64,000 bases of DNA from Haloarchaeobius sp. HME9146 (lineage in GTDB: Archaea > Halobacteriota > Halobacteria > Halobacteriales > Natrialbaceae), in the NCBI RefSeq assembly GCF_025399835.1, contig NZ_JAODVR010000001.1, positions 868,001 through 932,000 of the forward strand, written 5' to 3'. This document shows, in pieces, positions 3,387-13,713 of the stretch; position 1 is the first letter of the stretch; the number at the start of each line of letters is the position of its first letter. Below the pieces are notes generated by a model. It made no database searches. It was not told the origin of the DNA and saw only the letters and a list, made by a program, of their open reading frames with translations. A program made the position numbers and the translations under genes.

Positions 3387-3982
3387 TGGTTATCGCTGCA
3401 CCTGGTAGTGTCGCGGAACTACCGACGGTCGAGAAAGACACCGAGGCCCAGCCACACTCGGGACCGCCCGACGACCTGAACCAGGGTCGGCGGCGGCCGA
3501 CTCGGAGCGCTGGCGTCGAGCCGACGGTCGAGAAATCGAAGGGTCGTCACAAGAAGGAGAAACAGAAGAAGGAGCCGAACCCGGTCCAGAGCAGCGAGGA
3601 CCGTGAGGTGCATCACGCGGTCGGCTCGGCAAACGTCACGACCAGCCTCGACCGTGACTCTGGTCGGGCAGAAACGACGCTCACCGGGCCGGGTTCGGGG
3701 AACGCGACCTCAGGCGCAAGCCAGGAGGACGACGTGACCGTCGCGAGAAACGCCCCGACAGACTCACACGCAGACGTCGAACGTACTGAGCAGGCAGTCG
3801 AGAACCAGACTGATGGGGCAGCCTACGGCGACCCTGACACGGTCGAAGACATCGGCAGCGGTGACGCTGTGACCGACACGACTCCCAGCGGCACGTCTGA
3901 GGGCGGGCTCTCGACTGCTGTCCTGGTGGTCGCTGCACTCGCACTGGTCGGACTCACCGTGGCCAACGGAGGTGGTCGGTGA
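3386..3982 (+). CDS. C-terminally anchored, charged virion-like protein
   Basis: A 198-residue protein from the GTG at 3386. Most of it is disordered, very polar sequence with lysine/arginine clusters (KGRHKKEKQKKEPN, about residues 52-65) followed by an acidic, threonine-rich stretch. The C-terminus is one hydrophobic helix (about 174-193, LSTAVLVVAALALVGLTVAN). A long soluble arm with a C-terminal anchor fits a virion membrane protein. A longer frame starting at 3194 overlaps the previous gene deeply and is less likely. It overlaps the next gene by 4 bases. Confidence 0.6.
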   Translation: MVIAAPGSVAELPTVEKDTEAQPHSGPPDDLNQGRRRPTRSAGVEPTVEKSKGRHKKEKQKKEPNPVQSSEDREVHHAVGSANVTTSLDRDSGRAETTLTGPGSGNATSGASQEDDVTVARNAPTDSHADVERTEQAVENQTDGAAYGDPDTVEDIGSGDAVTDTTPSGTSEGGLSTAVLVVAALALVGLTVANGGGR

Positions 3983-4485
3983 TGGGCGGCATGTTCGACG
4001 GGATCGCTGGCTTCGCCGACAACCTCGCGGGCTCGACCGACGAAGCGGTCGGGCGTGCGACTGACGCCGCCATGCGGGGTGACTGGGGCGGTGTGGGAGA
4101 CAATCTCGCCGGCGACGTGGACGACGCAGTTGGTCGCGCCATCGACGCCGCGCAAGATGGTGATTGGGCCACTGCCGGGGACAACCTCGGCGGTGGCTTC
4201 GACGAGTGGTGGGCGACCAACGACATCACCGACGGGTTCACCGACACGGTGTGGTCGGGCCACGATGGCGACACCATCGACCTGTTCGGGCCGACCGCGT
4301 GGGGCGAGCAGGGCAGTGTCGTCGACTACGCGACCGACACCGAAGGCGAGCAGATGACCCCGACCGAGCGCATCGTGCAGGGTGGACTCGACGACTACTG
4401 GTGGGTCTTGGTGGCTGTCGTCGTGCTCATCATGCTGGCACCGTATGCAGATCTCGCCAACACCGCGGCAGGTGGTGGGTCGTGA
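3979..4485 (+). CDS. membrane protein with 27-residue repeats (VP10-like position)
   Basis: A 168-residue protein; the start is GTG 3979 (overlapping the upstream stop) or ATG 3982. The N-terminal half contains two nearly identical 27-residue repeats beginning DNLAGSTDEAVGRATDAA and DNLAGDVDDAVGRAIDAA, and a third partial one, predicted as amphipathic helices. The C-terminus is one strongly hydrophobic helix (about residues 136-153, YWWVLVAVVVLIMLAPYA). The layout suggests a virion membrane protein with a helical repeat domain outside or inside the membrane. Function unknown. Confidence 0.6.
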   Translation: MMGGMFDGIAGFADNLAGSTDEAVGRATDAAMRGDWGGVGDNLAGDVDDAVGRAIDAAQDGDWATAGDNLGGGFDEWWATNDITDGFTDTVWSGHDGDTIDLFGPTAWGEQGSVVDYATDTEGEQMTPTERIVQGGLDDYWWVLVAVVVLIMLAPYADLANTAAGGGS

Positions 4486-6493: not shown

Positions 6494-7099
6494 ATGCGGT
6501 GTGAGAGAAACAAGGATGGGTCGTTCAACGTCTGGATGACCCGCGACGAGTATCACGAGTTGCCCCGAGCCGCAGATACCTTCCAGCGAGAGATTGCCAT
6601 CCGACTGATGGGCGATTGTGGGCTCCGCGTCGCTGAGGTACTCGATGTCAAGCCCGTGCACATCTCCAGGAAGGCCGACGGGAAGCACTACGATCTCGAA
6701 GTCGTGAGCGGCAAGGACACCACCGGAGAGTACGCGGGCGGGAAGCATCGCGAGACGTGGCTCCCACGCGAGCTTGAGGCGCTGGTGAATCGCTACTGCC
6801 AGCAGCACAACGTCGACGAGAACGAGCCGCTCATCGACCGCGGGAAGCGCACGGTCCAGTACTGGGTCGAGCAGGCCGCAGAGGTCGCGGCCAAGGAGAC
6901 GGGCGACGAGGACTATCTGCGTATCTCGACGCACGACTTGCGGCGCTGCTGGGCGAACCATCTCCTGGTCGAGGAGAACGTGAGTCCGCGAATCGTGATG
7001 GCGCTCGGTGGATGGAGTAGTTACGATGCGATTGAGCCGTATCTGGCAGCGCCGACGGAGGAGAACATCATAGATTGCATGACTCAAGTTGGACTGTAG
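6494..7099 (+). CDS. tyrosine recombinase, catalytic domain only
   Basis: A 201-residue integrase/recombinase of the XerC/D-lambda Int class. The catalytic set is visible: Arg45 in GLRVAEV, His147-x-x-Arg150 in STHDLRRCW, Trp in GGWSS, and the nucleophile Tyr183 in IEPYLAAP (Tyr177 is the alternative). The usual N-terminal SAM-like arm/core-binding domain is missing, so it is about half the length of a normal integrase. Such short forms occur in haloarchaeal viruses and plasmids, where they may act in resolution or inversion. A full-length integrase lies at 12160, so this one is probably not the only recombinase of the element. Confidence 0.85.
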   Translation: MRCERNKDGSFNVWMTRDEYHELPRAADTFQREIAIRLMGDCGLRVAEVLDVKPVHISRKADGKHYDLEVVSGKDTTGEYAGGKHRETWLPRELEALVNRYCQQHNVDENEPLIDRGKRTVQYWVEQAAEVAAKETGDEDYLRISTHDLRRCWANHLLVEENVSPRIVMALGGWSSYDAIEPYLAAPTEENIIDCMTQVGL

Positions 7100-8771: not shown

Positions 8772-9179
8772 TCAGATTGTAGTCTGTGCCTGTTGAGAGA
8801 ATGATATCTTCACTCTATTCTCGCCGAGCTCTCTGTAACGTGGGCTAGGGTTATTGAAAAGAGCAGAGCTAAATTTCTCAATCTTGGTTTCGTGTTGGAT
8901 GTACTCGCTGACTGGATTTTCTGACTTCAGCAATAATGCAACACTATATTCGTTAATTGAATGGTCCGAACTCCGAATCTTATCTTTGATTTCACTAAAG
9001 GTATTTGATAGATTAATGTGGCGGAGGGAATTTATCTCAATTCTGACCCGAATATCTCCATTCGGCAACATCTGTAATTCCATTCCCTCATCAGTCGTTC
9101 TGTATTCGACAGAGCCCTCTTGAGAGACCTCAGTAACGGTTGCGGGCCTAATAAAGTGGAATACCAGCTCAGTCATCAT
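8772..9179 (-). CDS. third gene of candidate defence operon, unknown
   Basis: A 135-residue protein beginning MTELVFHFIRPATVTEVSQ (a second Met directly precedes). The N-terminal 60 residues are predicted beta-rich (VEYRTTDEGMELQML, DIRVRIEINSL) and the remainder mixed. It contains no catalytic motif that I recognise. Its start overlaps the end of the nuclease-like gene by 11 bases, so it is made from the same transcript. It could be an accessory, sensor or inhibitor subunit of the nuclease (inference). Confidence 0.6.
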   Translation of the reverse strand: MMTELVFHFIRPATVTEVSQEGSVEYRTTDEGMELQMLPNGDIRVRIEINSLRHINLSNTFSEIKDKIRSSDHSINEYSVALLLKSENPVSEYIQHETKIEKFSSALFNNPSPRYRELGENRVKISFSQQAQTTI

Positions 9180-10161
9180 CTGCCTCCGAGGATGTAGAGT
9201 CGTCCATATCGATTAGTTTACCAATGTCCTGACTGAGCTCGGTTTCAGTTCTTCTTTCCTGTTCTCTCAGGCGTTGGAGCTCCTCAAAGTTCTCTTCAGT
9301 TCGTGATTCTAAGGTTTCTAGCAGCACTTCATCAACTTTGTCCTTCCCCCTGAGATATTCCGCATAATCGAGGATATCTTCTTTACTTCTCGCAGGTTCG
9401 TCAACCTCGATGTTATCAGGGCCATATTTCGAATGAACTTCTTGAGCCGCAGACTGGAGTTCTTCGGGAGTTTGGCCGGATGAGTTAGTAGAATGCTCTA
9501 ATCTCTTCAACCGGAAACCGGCCGCATTTTGAAGTTCCTCTCGGGTAACCGTCCCGCTGTCGATCGACTCAATTTTGTCTATAATCTTTTTCCGGCCAAA
9601 CCTGGCTTTCCCCGGACTACATTCGCGCAAGTACTCTTCAATACCGTGTATCAACTCTTTCTTTGTATGATGTTTGAAATCAAACCCCCGAAGCAATTCT
9701 TCTATGTACTTGCTTTCTTCCTCTAAATCGTCTACAAGAGAATCGATTATTTTCCGCTCGTGTTTTGTAGATAGAACATTCCACCCAATCGCCCCATCTC
9801 GGAGCCTGCGAATATCATCAACTAATTTCCCTATCTTTTGTTGGACTTGAACGTTAGAAACTAGAACCACATTTTTGATAGTCTCATCAGTCGTCTCTTC
9901 TTCTATGAACACCTTCTCCAGGTTTGGAGCTATATTTTTGGAAAAGTAACTCCAAGTAATTTGTCCTCTTTTCCTGCTCTTTGCCTCAAAATAGAACTTA
10001 CGCTTGTACTCACCATCATGATAAAAAAATGCAAAGTCAGCATGGTGTTTTTCGATATGGAGGGAGTTCGCACTCTCATCACGAAGAAAATAGTACGCAG
10101 CAGCCAGATCCTGATACTCTTGCCCCCTTCTCTGAGGCGCTCCGCCACCTTCTTGCGTCAT
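9169..10161 (-). CDS. DUF4297/Cap4-like PD-(D/E)XK nuclease with helical C-terminal part
   Basis: A 330-residue protein. Residues 9-65 match the pattern of DUF4297 dsDNA endonuclease domains (as in the CBASS effector Cap4): R12-G13-x-x-Y16-Q17-x-L, then Asp42 in HADFAFF and Glu59-x-Lys61 in YFEAKSR as the D...ExK active site. The following helical part (about 100-215), with an EELLRGFDF-type segment and a VTREEL turn, also fits DUF4297 proteins. The last 110 residues are acidic and coiled-coil-like. Known partners of this domain (a CD-NTase, or a HerA ATPase) are absent here; instead it is coupled to two unknown proteins. Likely role: target DNA degradation in a phage-defence response (inference). 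Confidence 0.65.
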   Translation of the reverse strand: MTQEGGGAPQRRGQEYQDLAAAYYFLRDESANSLHIEKHHADFAFFYHDGEYKRKFYFEAKSRKRGQITWSYFSKNIAPNLEKVFIEEETTDETIKNVVLVSNVQVQQKIGKLVDDIRRLRDGAIGWNVLSTKHERKIIDSLVDDLEEESKYIEELLRGFDFKHHTKKELIHGIEEYLRECSPGKARFGRKKIIDKIESIDSGTVTREELQNAAGFRLKRLEHSTNSSGQTPEELQSAAQEVHSKYGPDNIEVDEPARSKEDILDYAEYLRGKDKVDEVLLETLESRTEENFEELQRLREQERRTETELSQDIGKLIDMDDSTSSEADDD

Positions 10162-11292: not shown

Positions 11293-11604
11293 TCAGTTTG
11301 CTTCTTCGGATGCCGACACGTCTCCGTTTCCGTTGTTGGGGACCTTGTTGAGCGCGTCTTCGCTGGTGTCGTACTCTCCCCGTAAGTAGGCCTCTCCATT
11401 GTCTGTAATCACGTACACCCCATTACCAACGTGAGTCAATAGCCCGCGTTTGGCGAGTTCTTTGCAACGCTTGGCGATGTACTGGCGAGAGTACCGAATG
11501 GGTCCCTCTTCCATCATCTCGGTCGGGGACCCGTGTTCGTTCTCGTGGATGTACTCGAGCACTCGGTCGTCCACGAGTGCCATCCATTTACCGGATTTCC
11601 TCAT
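11293..11604 (-). CDS. winged-helix transcriptional regulator (phiH1-repressor-like)
   Basis: A 103-residue paralogue of the next gene: KWMALVDDRVLEYIHENEH, then RYSRQYIAKRCKELAKRGLL as helix-turn-helix, then a wing (THVGNGVYVITDNGEAYLRGEYD). The C-terminal 25 residues are an acidic tail. The gene is transcribed away from the structured leader RNA and second integrase. The intergenic region carries tandem TAATCTCT repeats that are good candidates for its operator. It probably holds the element in the integrated state. Confidence 0.8.
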   Translation of the reverse strand: MRKSGKWMALVDDRVLEYIHENEHGSPTEMMEEGPIRYSRQYIAKRCKELAKRGLLTHVGNGVYVITDNGEAYLRGEYDTSEDALNKVPNNGNGDVSASEEAN

Positions 11605-11641
11605 TAGTTCCTATTTCTCCAGTAGGCACCGACTATGATAG

Positions 11642-11702
11642 TAATCTCTCTAATCTCTAATAAGATATCTACGAACTATCTGGCGTCGTCGTAATCTATA
11701 AG
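11642..11702. promoter_or_regulatory. divergent control region with tandem TAATCTCT repeats
   Basis: TAATCTCT occurs at 11642-11649 and 11651-11658, with a related taatctat at 11692-11699 that forms part of the plus-strand TATA element tctataag (11695-11702). The repeats lie between the repressor genes (minus) and the integrase operon (plus), so one regulator could control both directions. Confidence 0.5.
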
Positions 11703-11721
11703 AGACAAGGGTCAGAATAGG

Positions 11722-11820
11722 CGAGTGCGGAGCCACCGACAGGATGTAGAAGACTCTCTTGGGCGGTGTGAAGACCGGGGCGCGTTGTAGCGCGCCCCGA
11801 AAGGTGGCTCCGTTCACTCG
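11722..11820 (+). ncRNA. highly structured leader RNA of the integrase operon
   Basis: A long closing stem pairs CGAGTG (11722-11727), C and GGAGCCACC (11729-11737) with GGTGGCTCC (11803-11811), G and CACTCG (11815-11820): about 16 bp with a two-base bulge. Inside, GGGGCGCG (11777-11784) pairs with CGCGCCCC (11791-11798) around a six-base loop, and a shorter stem (CGGT/ACCG, 11764-11777) is an alternative. The TATA element at 11695-11702 predicts a transcription start at about 11723-11727, exactly at the base of the stem. The gene at 11826 starts six bases after the structure. It is either a regulatory leader hiding the start codon or an independent small RNA. Confidence 0.5.
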
Positions 11821-11825
11821 GACCA

Positions 11826-12035
11826 ATGAGTGCGAAAGCCAACACGGGGCTAGAACCCCGCACGGGAGGAGACGAATCGCCCAAGGAAAACAGTAACGAC
11901 GCGGGCCGGTGCTACATCTGCGGAGGCTACGCAGACGGCATCGACGCGAAGTCTCGCGAGCCCATCTGCCGGCGGTGTGATGCGACCTACGGACTGCTCG
12001 TCAAGCGCGCCCTCTGTGGAGGTACGCGCGCATGA
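11826..12035 (+). CDS. small zinc-ribbon protein
   Basis: A 69-residue protein with two CxxC pairs (CYICGGYADGIDAKSREPIC and CRRC) that form a treble-clef or zinc-ribbon site in the second half; the first 25 residues are disordered. It is the first gene of an operon with another zinc-ribbon protein and an integrase. The stop overlaps the next start (ATGA at 12032-12035). It probably binds DNA or a protein partner during element control. The start codon follows the structured leader directly. Confidence 0.65.
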   Translation: MSAKANTGLEPRTGGDESPKENSNDAGRCYICGGYADGIDAKSREPICRRCDATYGLLVKRALCGGTRA

Positions 12036-12163
12036 AGTGCGTCCGCTGTCGGCGCGAGCACGACACCGATGCCAGTCGGTGTCCGAACTGCGGCGGGACT
12101 CCTGCTAGGGAGTTCGACGCGGAGCTGGTTCTGCGGGCGACGCTCGGGAGGGCCGACGGGTGA
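12032..12163 (+). CDS. 43-residue zinc-ribbon microprotein
   Basis: MKCVRCRREHDTDASRCPNC contains two CxxC knuckles separated by 10 residues, a complete rubredoxin-type zinc site, followed by about 23 residues of acidic helix. It starts inside the stop of the previous gene (ATGA) and its stop overlaps the GTG of the integrase (GTGA), so all three are translationally coupled. Such tiny double-CxxC proteins are frequent in haloarchaea. Here it may assist the integrase or regulate it (inference). Confidence 0.6.
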   Translation: MKCVRCRREHDTDASRCPNCGGTPAREFDAELVLRATLGRADG

Positions 12164-13212
12164 GCGACGATCTCGAACCACTCGCCCCTGCACAGGCCGT
12201 CGAGATGTACCTGGAGGCGAAGCAGGACGACCTCACGGAGTCCACACTGAAGGGTCAGAAGTACCGCCTTCAGGCGGTCGTCCAGTGGTGTGACGAGGAG
12301 GGGATCGAGAATCTCAACGAACTCACCGGGCGCGACCTGTACGCCTACCGTGTCTGGCGACGCGAAGGCAACGGGGACGGGCGGGAGGCAGTCAAGCCCG
12401 TCACGCTTCGAGGGCAGCTCGCCACGGTGAAAGCGTTCCTCCGGTTCTGTGGTGACATCGAGGCGGTGCCGAAGGACCTGCACGACAAGGTCCCGTTGCC
12501 CACGCTCGACGTGGGCGCGGACGTGAGCAACTCGACGCTCGACCCGGCCCGCGTCGAGGAGATCCTCGACTACCTCGGTCGCTACGAGTACGCGAGCAGG
12601 AACCACATCATCGTCCTGCTACTGTGGCGAACCGGCTGCCGGACCGGCGGACTGCGGGCGCTCGACCTCCGCGATGTCGACCTGGAGGGCGAGCATCCAG
12701 CCATCAACGGGCCCGCGGTCCACTTCGTCCATCGACCGGAGGAAGGCACCCCGCTGAAGAACAAGGAGCGCGGCGACCGATGGAACCGCATCGGCGCGCA
12801 CGTCGCGCAGGCGCTCCAGGACTACATCGACGGGCCTCGGGTAGACGTGACGGACGACTACGGCCGCGACCCGCTGCTGACGACCACGCACGGACGCCCG
12901 ACCGGCTCGACGATACGCGACACGCTCTACCGCGTCACGCGCCCCTGCTGGCGCGGCGCGGCGTGTCCCCACGACCGCGAGCCGAAGGACTGCGAAGCGA
13001 CCGATATGAAGAAGGCCAGCCAGTGCCCGTCGTCCCGGTCACCCCACGACGTGCGGAGTGGTCGCGTAACCTTCTACAGGCAGAACGACACGCCCCGCCA
13101 GATTGTCCGGGACCGACTCAACGCGAGCGAGGACATCCTCGACAAGCACTACGACCGACGGAGCGAGCGACAGCGCGCAGAACAGCGAAGCAAGCACCTC
13201 CCAGACCTATGA
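12160..13212 (+). CDS. tyrosine integrase, full length
   Basis: A 350-residue phage-type integrase. Residues 8-110 form the SAM-like core-binding domain (AVEMYLEAKQDDLTESTLKG, LATVKAFLRFCGD). The catalytic domain has Arg in TGCRTGGLRAL, a lysine-containing beta turn (PLKNKERGDRW), His-x-x-Arg in SPHDVRSGRV and nucleophile Tyr331 in DKHYDRR. A cysteine cluster (CWRGAACPHDREPKDCEATD) inserted before the HxxR box is typical of haloarchaeal integrases and may bind zinc. The start is a GTG coupled to the preceding gene. It likely integrates the element; a 14-bp direct repeat (13261, 13360) follows closely. Confidence 0.9.
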   Translation: MSDDLEPLAPAQAVEMYLEAKQDDLTESTLKGQKYRLQAVVQWCDEEGIENLNELTGRDLYAYRVWRREGNGDGREAVKPVTLRGQLATVKAFLRFCGDIEAVPKDLHDKVPLPTLDVGADVSNSTLDPARVEEILDYLGRYEYASRNHIIVLLLWRTGCRTGGLRALDLRDVDLEGEHPAINGPAVHFVHRPEEGTPLKNKERGDRWNRIGAHVAQALQDYIDGPRVDVTDDYGRDPLLTTTHGRPTGSTIRDTLYRVTRPCWRGAACPHDREPKDCEATDMKKASQCPSSRSPHDVRSGRVTFYRQNDTPRQIVRDRLNASEDILDKHYDRRSERQRAEQRSKHLPDL

Positions 13213-13260
13213 AACCGACACACGACACCACGACGGCAACGACGCCCCCAGAACCATGGG

Positions 13261-13373
13261 CCGGCAGGGCCCATCGATTCTGCGAGTCGCAGTAGCGACG
13301 AGCGAATCGTAGATTGCTGCGGATTCGAAGCAGGGAGCGATAGCGACCGAGGTACGAATCCGGCAGGGCCCAT
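13261..13373. repeat. 14-bp direct repeat, possible attachment-site end
   Basis: CCGGCAGGGCCCAT occurs at 13261-13274 and 13360-13373. Between them are palindromic segments, notably GGATTCGAA (13321-13329) opposed to GTACGAATCC, a shape resembling a tRNA T-arm mirrored on itself. The segment lies 48 bases downstream of the integrase gene, where an attachment site is expected. No complete tRNA can be folded here. Confidence 0.4.
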
Positions 13374-13473
13374 GATTTTTGCAACCGTCAGTGACCGACA
13401 GTAGCATCTGTCCCCTCGAAACACCAGCTCCGCTCGTGGTCATCGCTTTCCCCGTCGGGCACCTATTGTGACC

Positions 13474-13713
13474 ATGTCACGACACGAGGCGACGTTCGAT
13501 ATCCGCGACAAGACCGACGCCCAGGCGGTCCAGACACTCATGGAACAGGCGTACAACGCGTTCCGCGAGGAGTTACAGCTGCACAACCGGTCCGATAGTG
13601 CGCCGAACGAGGTCCTTCGTGAGTTCAGGGAGATCCGCGACGCGACGAAACGCACGGTCCCGGGAACGCTGACGATCGTCTACGAGCAGCGTGACGAATC
13701 GTTCGACGACTGA
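13474..13713 (+). CDS. small conserved-looking protein, unknown
   Basis: A 79-residue acidic helical protein (MSRHEATFDIRDKTDAQAVQ) without cysteines or membrane helices. A GTG six bases upstream is possible, but the ATG is preferred. The body is a long amphipathic helix (LMEQAYNAFREELQLHNRS) followed by a shorter one and a terminal strand. It is the first gene with ordinary chromosomal composition to the right of the element. The function is not recognisable. Confidence 0.55.
   Translation: MSRHEATFDIRDKTDAQAVQTLMEQAYNAFREELQLHNRSDSAPNEVLREFREIRDATKRTVPGTLTIVYEQRDESFDD

Follow-up and report, generated by a model that had tools for sequence, protein, structure and literature searches.

Results

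An SNJ2-type integrase operon headed by a structured leader

The 64,000-nt stretch of the Haloarchaeobius sp. HME9146 genome analysed here (the window; contig NZ_JAODVR010000001.1, positions 868,001 to 932,000) contains an operon in which two small ORFs precede a tyrosine integrase gene, with a structured 5' leader RNA in front of the first ORF (Table 1). Two divergent regulators lie upstream of the leader, both belonging to PHROG 2440. The second ORF overlaps each of its neighbours by 4 nt (ATGA and GTGA); for the first, no Pfam family was found at E 0.1. Over 100% of its length the integrase shares 67.7% identity with the SNJ2 protein, and it shares 63.7% with that of HHPV4; this places it among the SNJ2-type tyrosine integrases, a family for which a review requires at least 30% identity across 60% of the protein (PMC8371274).

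Table 1. Features of the integrase operon and its leader in window coordinates. R1 is the covariance model and A1 the unfitted alignment of class I leaders described in the text.
Feature	Position	Strand	Basis and remarks
Divergent winged-helix-type regulator	11293..11604	-	phrog_2440, E 6.6e-33
TATA element TCTATAAG of leader promoter	11695..11702	+	Sequence; 31 nt before R1 position 1 (11726)
Structured 5' leader RNA, class I	11722..11820	+	Fold, R1 match 11726-11814, covariation
P1 closing stem, 5' arm (A)	11722..11737	+	Conserved core 11728-11737; fold, covariation
Central joining region	11738..11775	+	Near-invariant GA-N-GACUCU (window: GAAGACTCT) and GUGAAGA; invariant columns of A1
P3 GC hairpin	11776..11799	+	9 bp, 6-nt loop; fold, covariation
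P1 closing stem, 3' arm (B)	11803..11820	+	Conserved core 11803-11812; common to both competing helices
First ORF, 69 aa, two CxxC pairs, small zinc-finger-like protein	11826..12035	+	Translation
C segment GAGTGCGAAAGCC	11828..11840	+	Near-copy of A (GAGTGCGGAGCC, 11723-11734); complementary to B
P4 hairpin CGGGG-ctagaa-CCCCG inside ORF	11845..11860	+	Hairpin scan of homologues
Second ORF, 43 aa, zinc-ribbon-like	12032..12163	+	Pfam match below curated cut-off
SNJ2-type tyrosine integrase, 350 aa	12160..13212	+	phrog_1; protein comparison

When attachment sites (attL/attR) were sought, no repeat of at least 13 nt from 13205-13480 was found elsewhere in the window, and nothing convincing emerged from the organism's own genome. 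A direct repeat (CCGGCAGGGCCCAT...) is present just past the integrase gene, at 13261-13283 and 13360-13382. The surroundings also include a second tyrosine integrase gene at 6494-7099 (PF00589, E 6e-13), 4.6 kb from the leader, and a minus-strand gene at 9169-10161 whose weak, below-cut-off likeness to the Cap4 nuclease domain (E 0.006) would make it possibly a defence gene.

The leader is single-copy in its own genome. The original prediction, made from the sequence of this locus, described a 16-bp closing stem with an inner GC-only hairpin, and both are substantiated by folding: the segment 11710-11830 reaches -60.3 kcal/mol against -41.9 (sd 3.9) in 200 shuffles (z -4.68), none of which folds as well. 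The closing stem, P1, joins 11722-11737 to 11803-11820 through 16 bp with a 2-nt bulge at 11813-11814, while the GC-only hairpin, P3, has 9-bp arms at 11776-11784 and 11791-11799. The stem ends just before the first start codon as proposed, at a spacing of 5 nt (ATG at 11826) rather than the six bases first given. Two small extra hairpins in the minimum-energy fold of the single sequence were dropped for want of covariation support, and the covariation ranking of the class I loci supports no helix within the central joining region. A search of the window against Rfam 15 returned tRNAs only, with no family at its gathering score covering the leader; the best score within 11600-12200 was 16 bits, from a microRNA family with a cut-off of 100.

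Upstream of the leader, a TATA-like element (at least 6 of 8 matches to CATTTATG) occurs in 91 of 100 homologous loci, compared with 9 of 100 at a control position, and 81 of the 91 elements stand at -31 or -32 relative to the covariance model. In archaea, the usual spacing between the TATA element and the start places the latter at the first P1 bases. Since the TATA spacing is fixed among homologues, transcription should begin at the first bases of P1; the expectation that the leader begins at the TATA-predicted start thus holds, the 31-nt spacing of the window being the commonest among the 100 loci. The TATA box of class I leaders often sits within a palindrome (TGCATTTATGCA-like, e.g. in L087 and L108), and a degenerate form of this pattern surrounds it in 57 of the 100 loci. 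This palindrome is a possible operator of the divergent regulator.

Class I leaders covary as a sense-strand RNA

Among 391 haloarchaeal genomes, blastn with the window leader gave matches in 20. Five of these matches looked unrelated and were dropped (L017, L019, L020, L021, L026), and three others were reverse matches of the P3 palindrome (L022, L023, L025). When P1 and P3 were written by hand onto an alignment of 16 matched loci and the window that was not fitted to any structure (A1), 94.4% of cells were paired, compared with 37-41% when the pairing was slid by 1-3 columns. Both sides had changed in 9 of 19 pairs, so that the compensatory changes named as a test in the original prediction are present.

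A covariance search, likewise proposed there for related integrase loci, recovered the leader widely: the resulting model, R1, found it in 97 of the 391 genomes and 42 of 86 genera, including 46 of 125 genomes of the window's family, R1's training sequences being among these matches. The window leader itself scores 91.5 bits. We fetched 100 loci, the weakest R1 matches excepted. With L169 set aside, R1 was searched in the remaining 99 together with the window, and every one of these 100 loci carries the element, a 101st match being the reverse reading of one P3 palindrome. By ORF clustering, an SNJ2-like integrase lies downstream in 94 of 100 (the exceptions are L105, L111, L112, L122, L133 and L155), and a divergent winged-helix-type regulator starting about 100 bp upstream is present in all 100, with 91 in one cluster and nine in another. 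The view that a structured leader heads this integrase operon is therefore borne out by both its covarying, conserved structure and its genomic place.

A further alignment, A2, was fitted to R1, so counts made in it lean toward the structure. Ranked by average-product correction, the 12 top covarying column pairs comprise 11 from P1 or P3 and one loop pair alternating between C-A and U-G. In window coordinates, P3 loop positions 11785 and 11790 covary in this way, with C-A in 63 and U-G in 28 of 100 loci, as an isosteric wobble pair would. Across 61 representatives (class I loci below 85% identity to each other), the 488 interior P1 cells include 405 Watson-Crick pairs, 63 G-U pairs and two A-C combinations. 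Because G-U reads as an A-C mismatch on the opposite strand, selection acts on the plus strand as a single strand that folds, as RNA does; compensatory change together with this asymmetry indicates that the leader acts as a sense-strand RNA. From the promoter and the strand asymmetry, we infer that it is transcribed.

A possible competing helix at the start codon

All 100 class I loci have an ATG 5-14 nt beyond P1, and a further hairpin, P4, lies inside the ORF. P4 starts 17-19 nt past the A of the ATG in 54 of the 61 representatives and has a stem of at least 5 bp in 60 of them, with 35 different 5' arms; its mean stem score is 17.5, against 10.5 (sd 2.9) in mononucleotide shuffles, which ignore codons. 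As P4 is retained at a near-fixed distance inside the ORF, the conserved structure reaches the coding sequence. The suggestion that the leader might be a separate small RNA loses ground for the same reason, as the conserved fold spans the start codon and continues inside the ORF.

The B sequence is complementary not only to A but also to C, the near-copy of A around the start codon. This second partner, like P4 and the class II leaders described below, goes beyond the original prediction. Over the 61 representatives, the A:B duplex averages -17.83 kcal/mol, compared with -13.03 for permuted partners. The B:C duplex averages -13.99 kcal/mol against -11.00 (sd 0.33), the best of 2000 permutations, which ignore phylogeny, reaching -12.2. 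A control region downstream gave no excess (-8.49 against -8.67 permuted). C was not selected for by the search, as R1 contains no C sequence.

When A is blocked in folding, 55 of the 61 representatives have a best fold that joins B to the AUG region. The cost of blocking A has a median of 6.6 kcal/mol and a range of 1.6-15.6, with B:C already in the best fold at some loci and the window at the A:B end of the spread (-66.9 against -51.3 with A blocked); these values derive from energy parameters not made for haloarchaeal salt. Such a spread is wide for one switch. The mean unpaired probability of the AUG also speaks against switching, at 0.57 unconstrained and 0.52 with A blocked. Computed exposure hardly changes because the AUG lies mostly in a hairpin loop, which is a weakness for the idea that B:C occludes the start. 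A generic scan for the A-B-C layout separated poorly (sense 46/88, antisense 34/88, shuffled 29/88), and was not used for counting as it is not specific.

A second leader class in front of related integrases

SNJ2-type integrases occur in 356 of the 391 genomes (E 1e-30), so class I serves only part of them. R1 found no match at E 0.01 in 79 integrase upstream regions away from R1 matches, drawn from the best-scoring part of the integrase list. The idea that the leader accompanies the integrase as such was rejected, since relatives at 40-77% identity (L027-L034) have no R1 match; some integrase relatives of this kind carry a different leader, class II, instead. Class II runs in the order A (ACGGAAGC-type), GGACCCG hairpin, second GC hairpin, B (GCUUCCGU) and C (UACGGAAGC), with C directly preceding the ATG.

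A second covariance model, R2, was built without C from 15 seeds picked by a pattern that includes C. At E 0.01 it matches 138 of 391 genomes and 47 of 86 genera, the weak tail of which may contain chance matches. R2 matches SNJ2, Halfgib1 and HRPV9 at 38-39 bits and, on the sense strand, 40 of the 79 upstream regions without R1. It is also absent from the other 39, which counts against the switch reading. The ATG follows the R2 match by 15-19 nt in 71 of 73 cases, L242 and L289 having no ATG within 35 nt; the R2 seeds are counted among these 73. The class II B:C duplex averages -12.11 kcal/mol against -10.85 (sd 0.36) for permuted partners, with the best of 2000 at -12.21, in a set of only 18 representatives that includes three R2 seeds. 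Either R1 or R2 is found in 197 of the 391 genomes, and both in 38.

The first class II alignments, A3 and A4, mixed two registers; A4 was left unused and A3 served for pair counts only. A3, with 20 of 25 candidates (L219, L242, L198, L243 and L237 were dropped), has 91.7% of P1 cells and 89.4% of anti-P1 cells paired, figures that are biased when taken alone because an anchor string containing C had placed 7 of the 25 candidates (5 of the 20 used). Upstream of the integrase in L028, L181 and L208, we also saw a third leader sequence with the same A-B-C layout (GAGCGACAC ... GUGUUGCUC ucgc GAGCGAACAC AUG), anecdotally a possible third class.

Discussion

Haloarchaea are known for leaderless mRNAs and, to our knowledge, hardly any natural leaders resembling riboswitches are known from archaea. 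No leader of the kind reported here is described in the literature we searched, which excluded most subscription papers. Given this and the lack of an Rfam match, we call the integrase leader a new RNA family among structured regulatory leaders, with an unusual layout apparently suited to turning translation of the first gene on and off.

We consider it rather probable, judging from comparative sequence evidence, that the leader gates the integrase operon as a translational switch based on strand exchange. Both helices would then form in the cell. A, as the first nucleotides of the transcript, would pair with B and close a multiloop containing the conserved centre and P3, and this helix could form first, during transcription. 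With A:B in place, the start region would be open and the first ORF translated, and integrase translation would follow through the overlapping genes; given these overlaps in the window, initiation at the first AUG could determine how strongly the entire operon is expressed. Were C to take B instead of A, a hairpin would enclose the AUG in class I or adjoin it in class II, and initiation would be hindered. A precedent for AUG masking in haloarchaea is a synthetic riboswitch (PMC8241225). The balance between A:B and B:C may be tipped by a metabolite, ion or protein bound to the conserved centre, which makes the central joining region a candidate sensor or protein site; in class I, the near-invariant GA-N-GACUCU is the candidate sensor. 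The divergent regulator presumably sets transcription, with the leader adding a second lock.

Alternatively, the leader may simply be bound by a protein (for example the small CxxC protein or the integrase from the operon, or L7Ae of the host) that represses or activates translation, with C as a second copy of the binding site. We regard this as rather unlikely, though several features fit it: the near-repetition of A in C gives A:B and B:C almost identical duplexes, the first ORF encodes a small CxxC protein, and GAUGA, which we take to recall box C, is frequent in the leader centre. Furthermore, translation of L7Ae is autoregulated by way of a k-turn in its 5' leader (PMC6298567); that leader is likewise an archaeal mRNA leader whose fold controls translation, but differs from the integrase leader in gene and fold. 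Against this stands the centre itself, which differs between class I and class II, so that one common protein is not obvious.

It is improbable that the leader is a stable structure that never switches, in which the 5' fold protects the mRNA and sets the start codon between two hairpins while B:C is a by-product of A having been duplicated. The greater average strength of A:B (-17.8 versus -14.0 kcal/mol) and the nearly fixed distance of P4 after the AUG would suit such a role, but B:C complementarity is kept across diverged sequences beyond permutation and recurs in class II with a different sequence. That the element works as DNA, as an integrase or repressor site, origin or cruciform, is scarcely credible despite the dense inverted repeats beside the integrase and regulator, given the 63 G-U against two A-C cells in P1, attP sites annotated past the 3' end of int, and the rolling-circle origin of betapleolipoviruses, a hairpin that PMC13107129 places in SNJ2 downstream of the Rep gene orf19, as opposed to upstream of the integrase operon like the leader.

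A strand-exchange switch would have much in common with translational riboswitches. The class I leader is, like those, a conserved structured 5' leader of an mRNA, with a conserved multiloop, near-invariant unpaired bases and complementary segments at the start codon whose pairings would exclude each other. It departs from them in having a near-copy of the 5' arm as the competing strand, a structure that extends into the ORF and a ligand that is only hypothetical. The fluoride riboswitch of Thermococcus is given in PMC8241225 as the only natural archaeal one determined experimentally.

Two known viruses place the leaders in a biological setting. The integrase operon of SNJ2 (orf1-3), from the temperate pleolipoviruses, resembles that of the window in its small accessory ORFs before int and its divergent regulator upstream, and differs in carrying a class II leader (R2 38.5 bits) rather than class I. 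Two alternative starts are reported for orf1-3 in the review (PMC8371274), and a leader RNA is not among the features of this operon described in those parts of the literature that we searched. In Haloarcula hispanica pleomorphic virus 4 (HHPV4), the integrase is preceded by a class I leader (L171, 3701-3789; R1 66.2 bits); this virus differs from the window in that its record annotates a minus-strand ORF at the leader. Within 3653-4018 of that record (NC_047943.1), minus-strand ORF2 runs antisense to the class I leader and to a plus-strand CxxC ORF (MSESTITGLQPRT...); the latter, and not ORF2, is probably the real gene.

More broadly, the two classes may represent a riboregulator family that is natural and widespread among the temperate viruses and integrated elements of haloarchaea, in which at least two unrelated sensor domains on one A-B-C platform would gate integrase translation by a cellular signal and bring RNA into the choice between integration and excision. 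This wider proposal is tentative, and we would not count on it at present. Two families of structured leaders nonetheless occur in 197 of 391 haloarchaeal genomes, tied to a single type of operon, one responsible for integrating and excising viruses. This brings the lysogeny decision in archaeal viruses within reach of tests at the RNA level, in SNJ2 of Natrinema and HHPV4 of Haloarcula, both of which have genetics. Finally, the leaders offer a handle on how the haloarchaeal ribosome chooses a start codon that lies between two hairpins.
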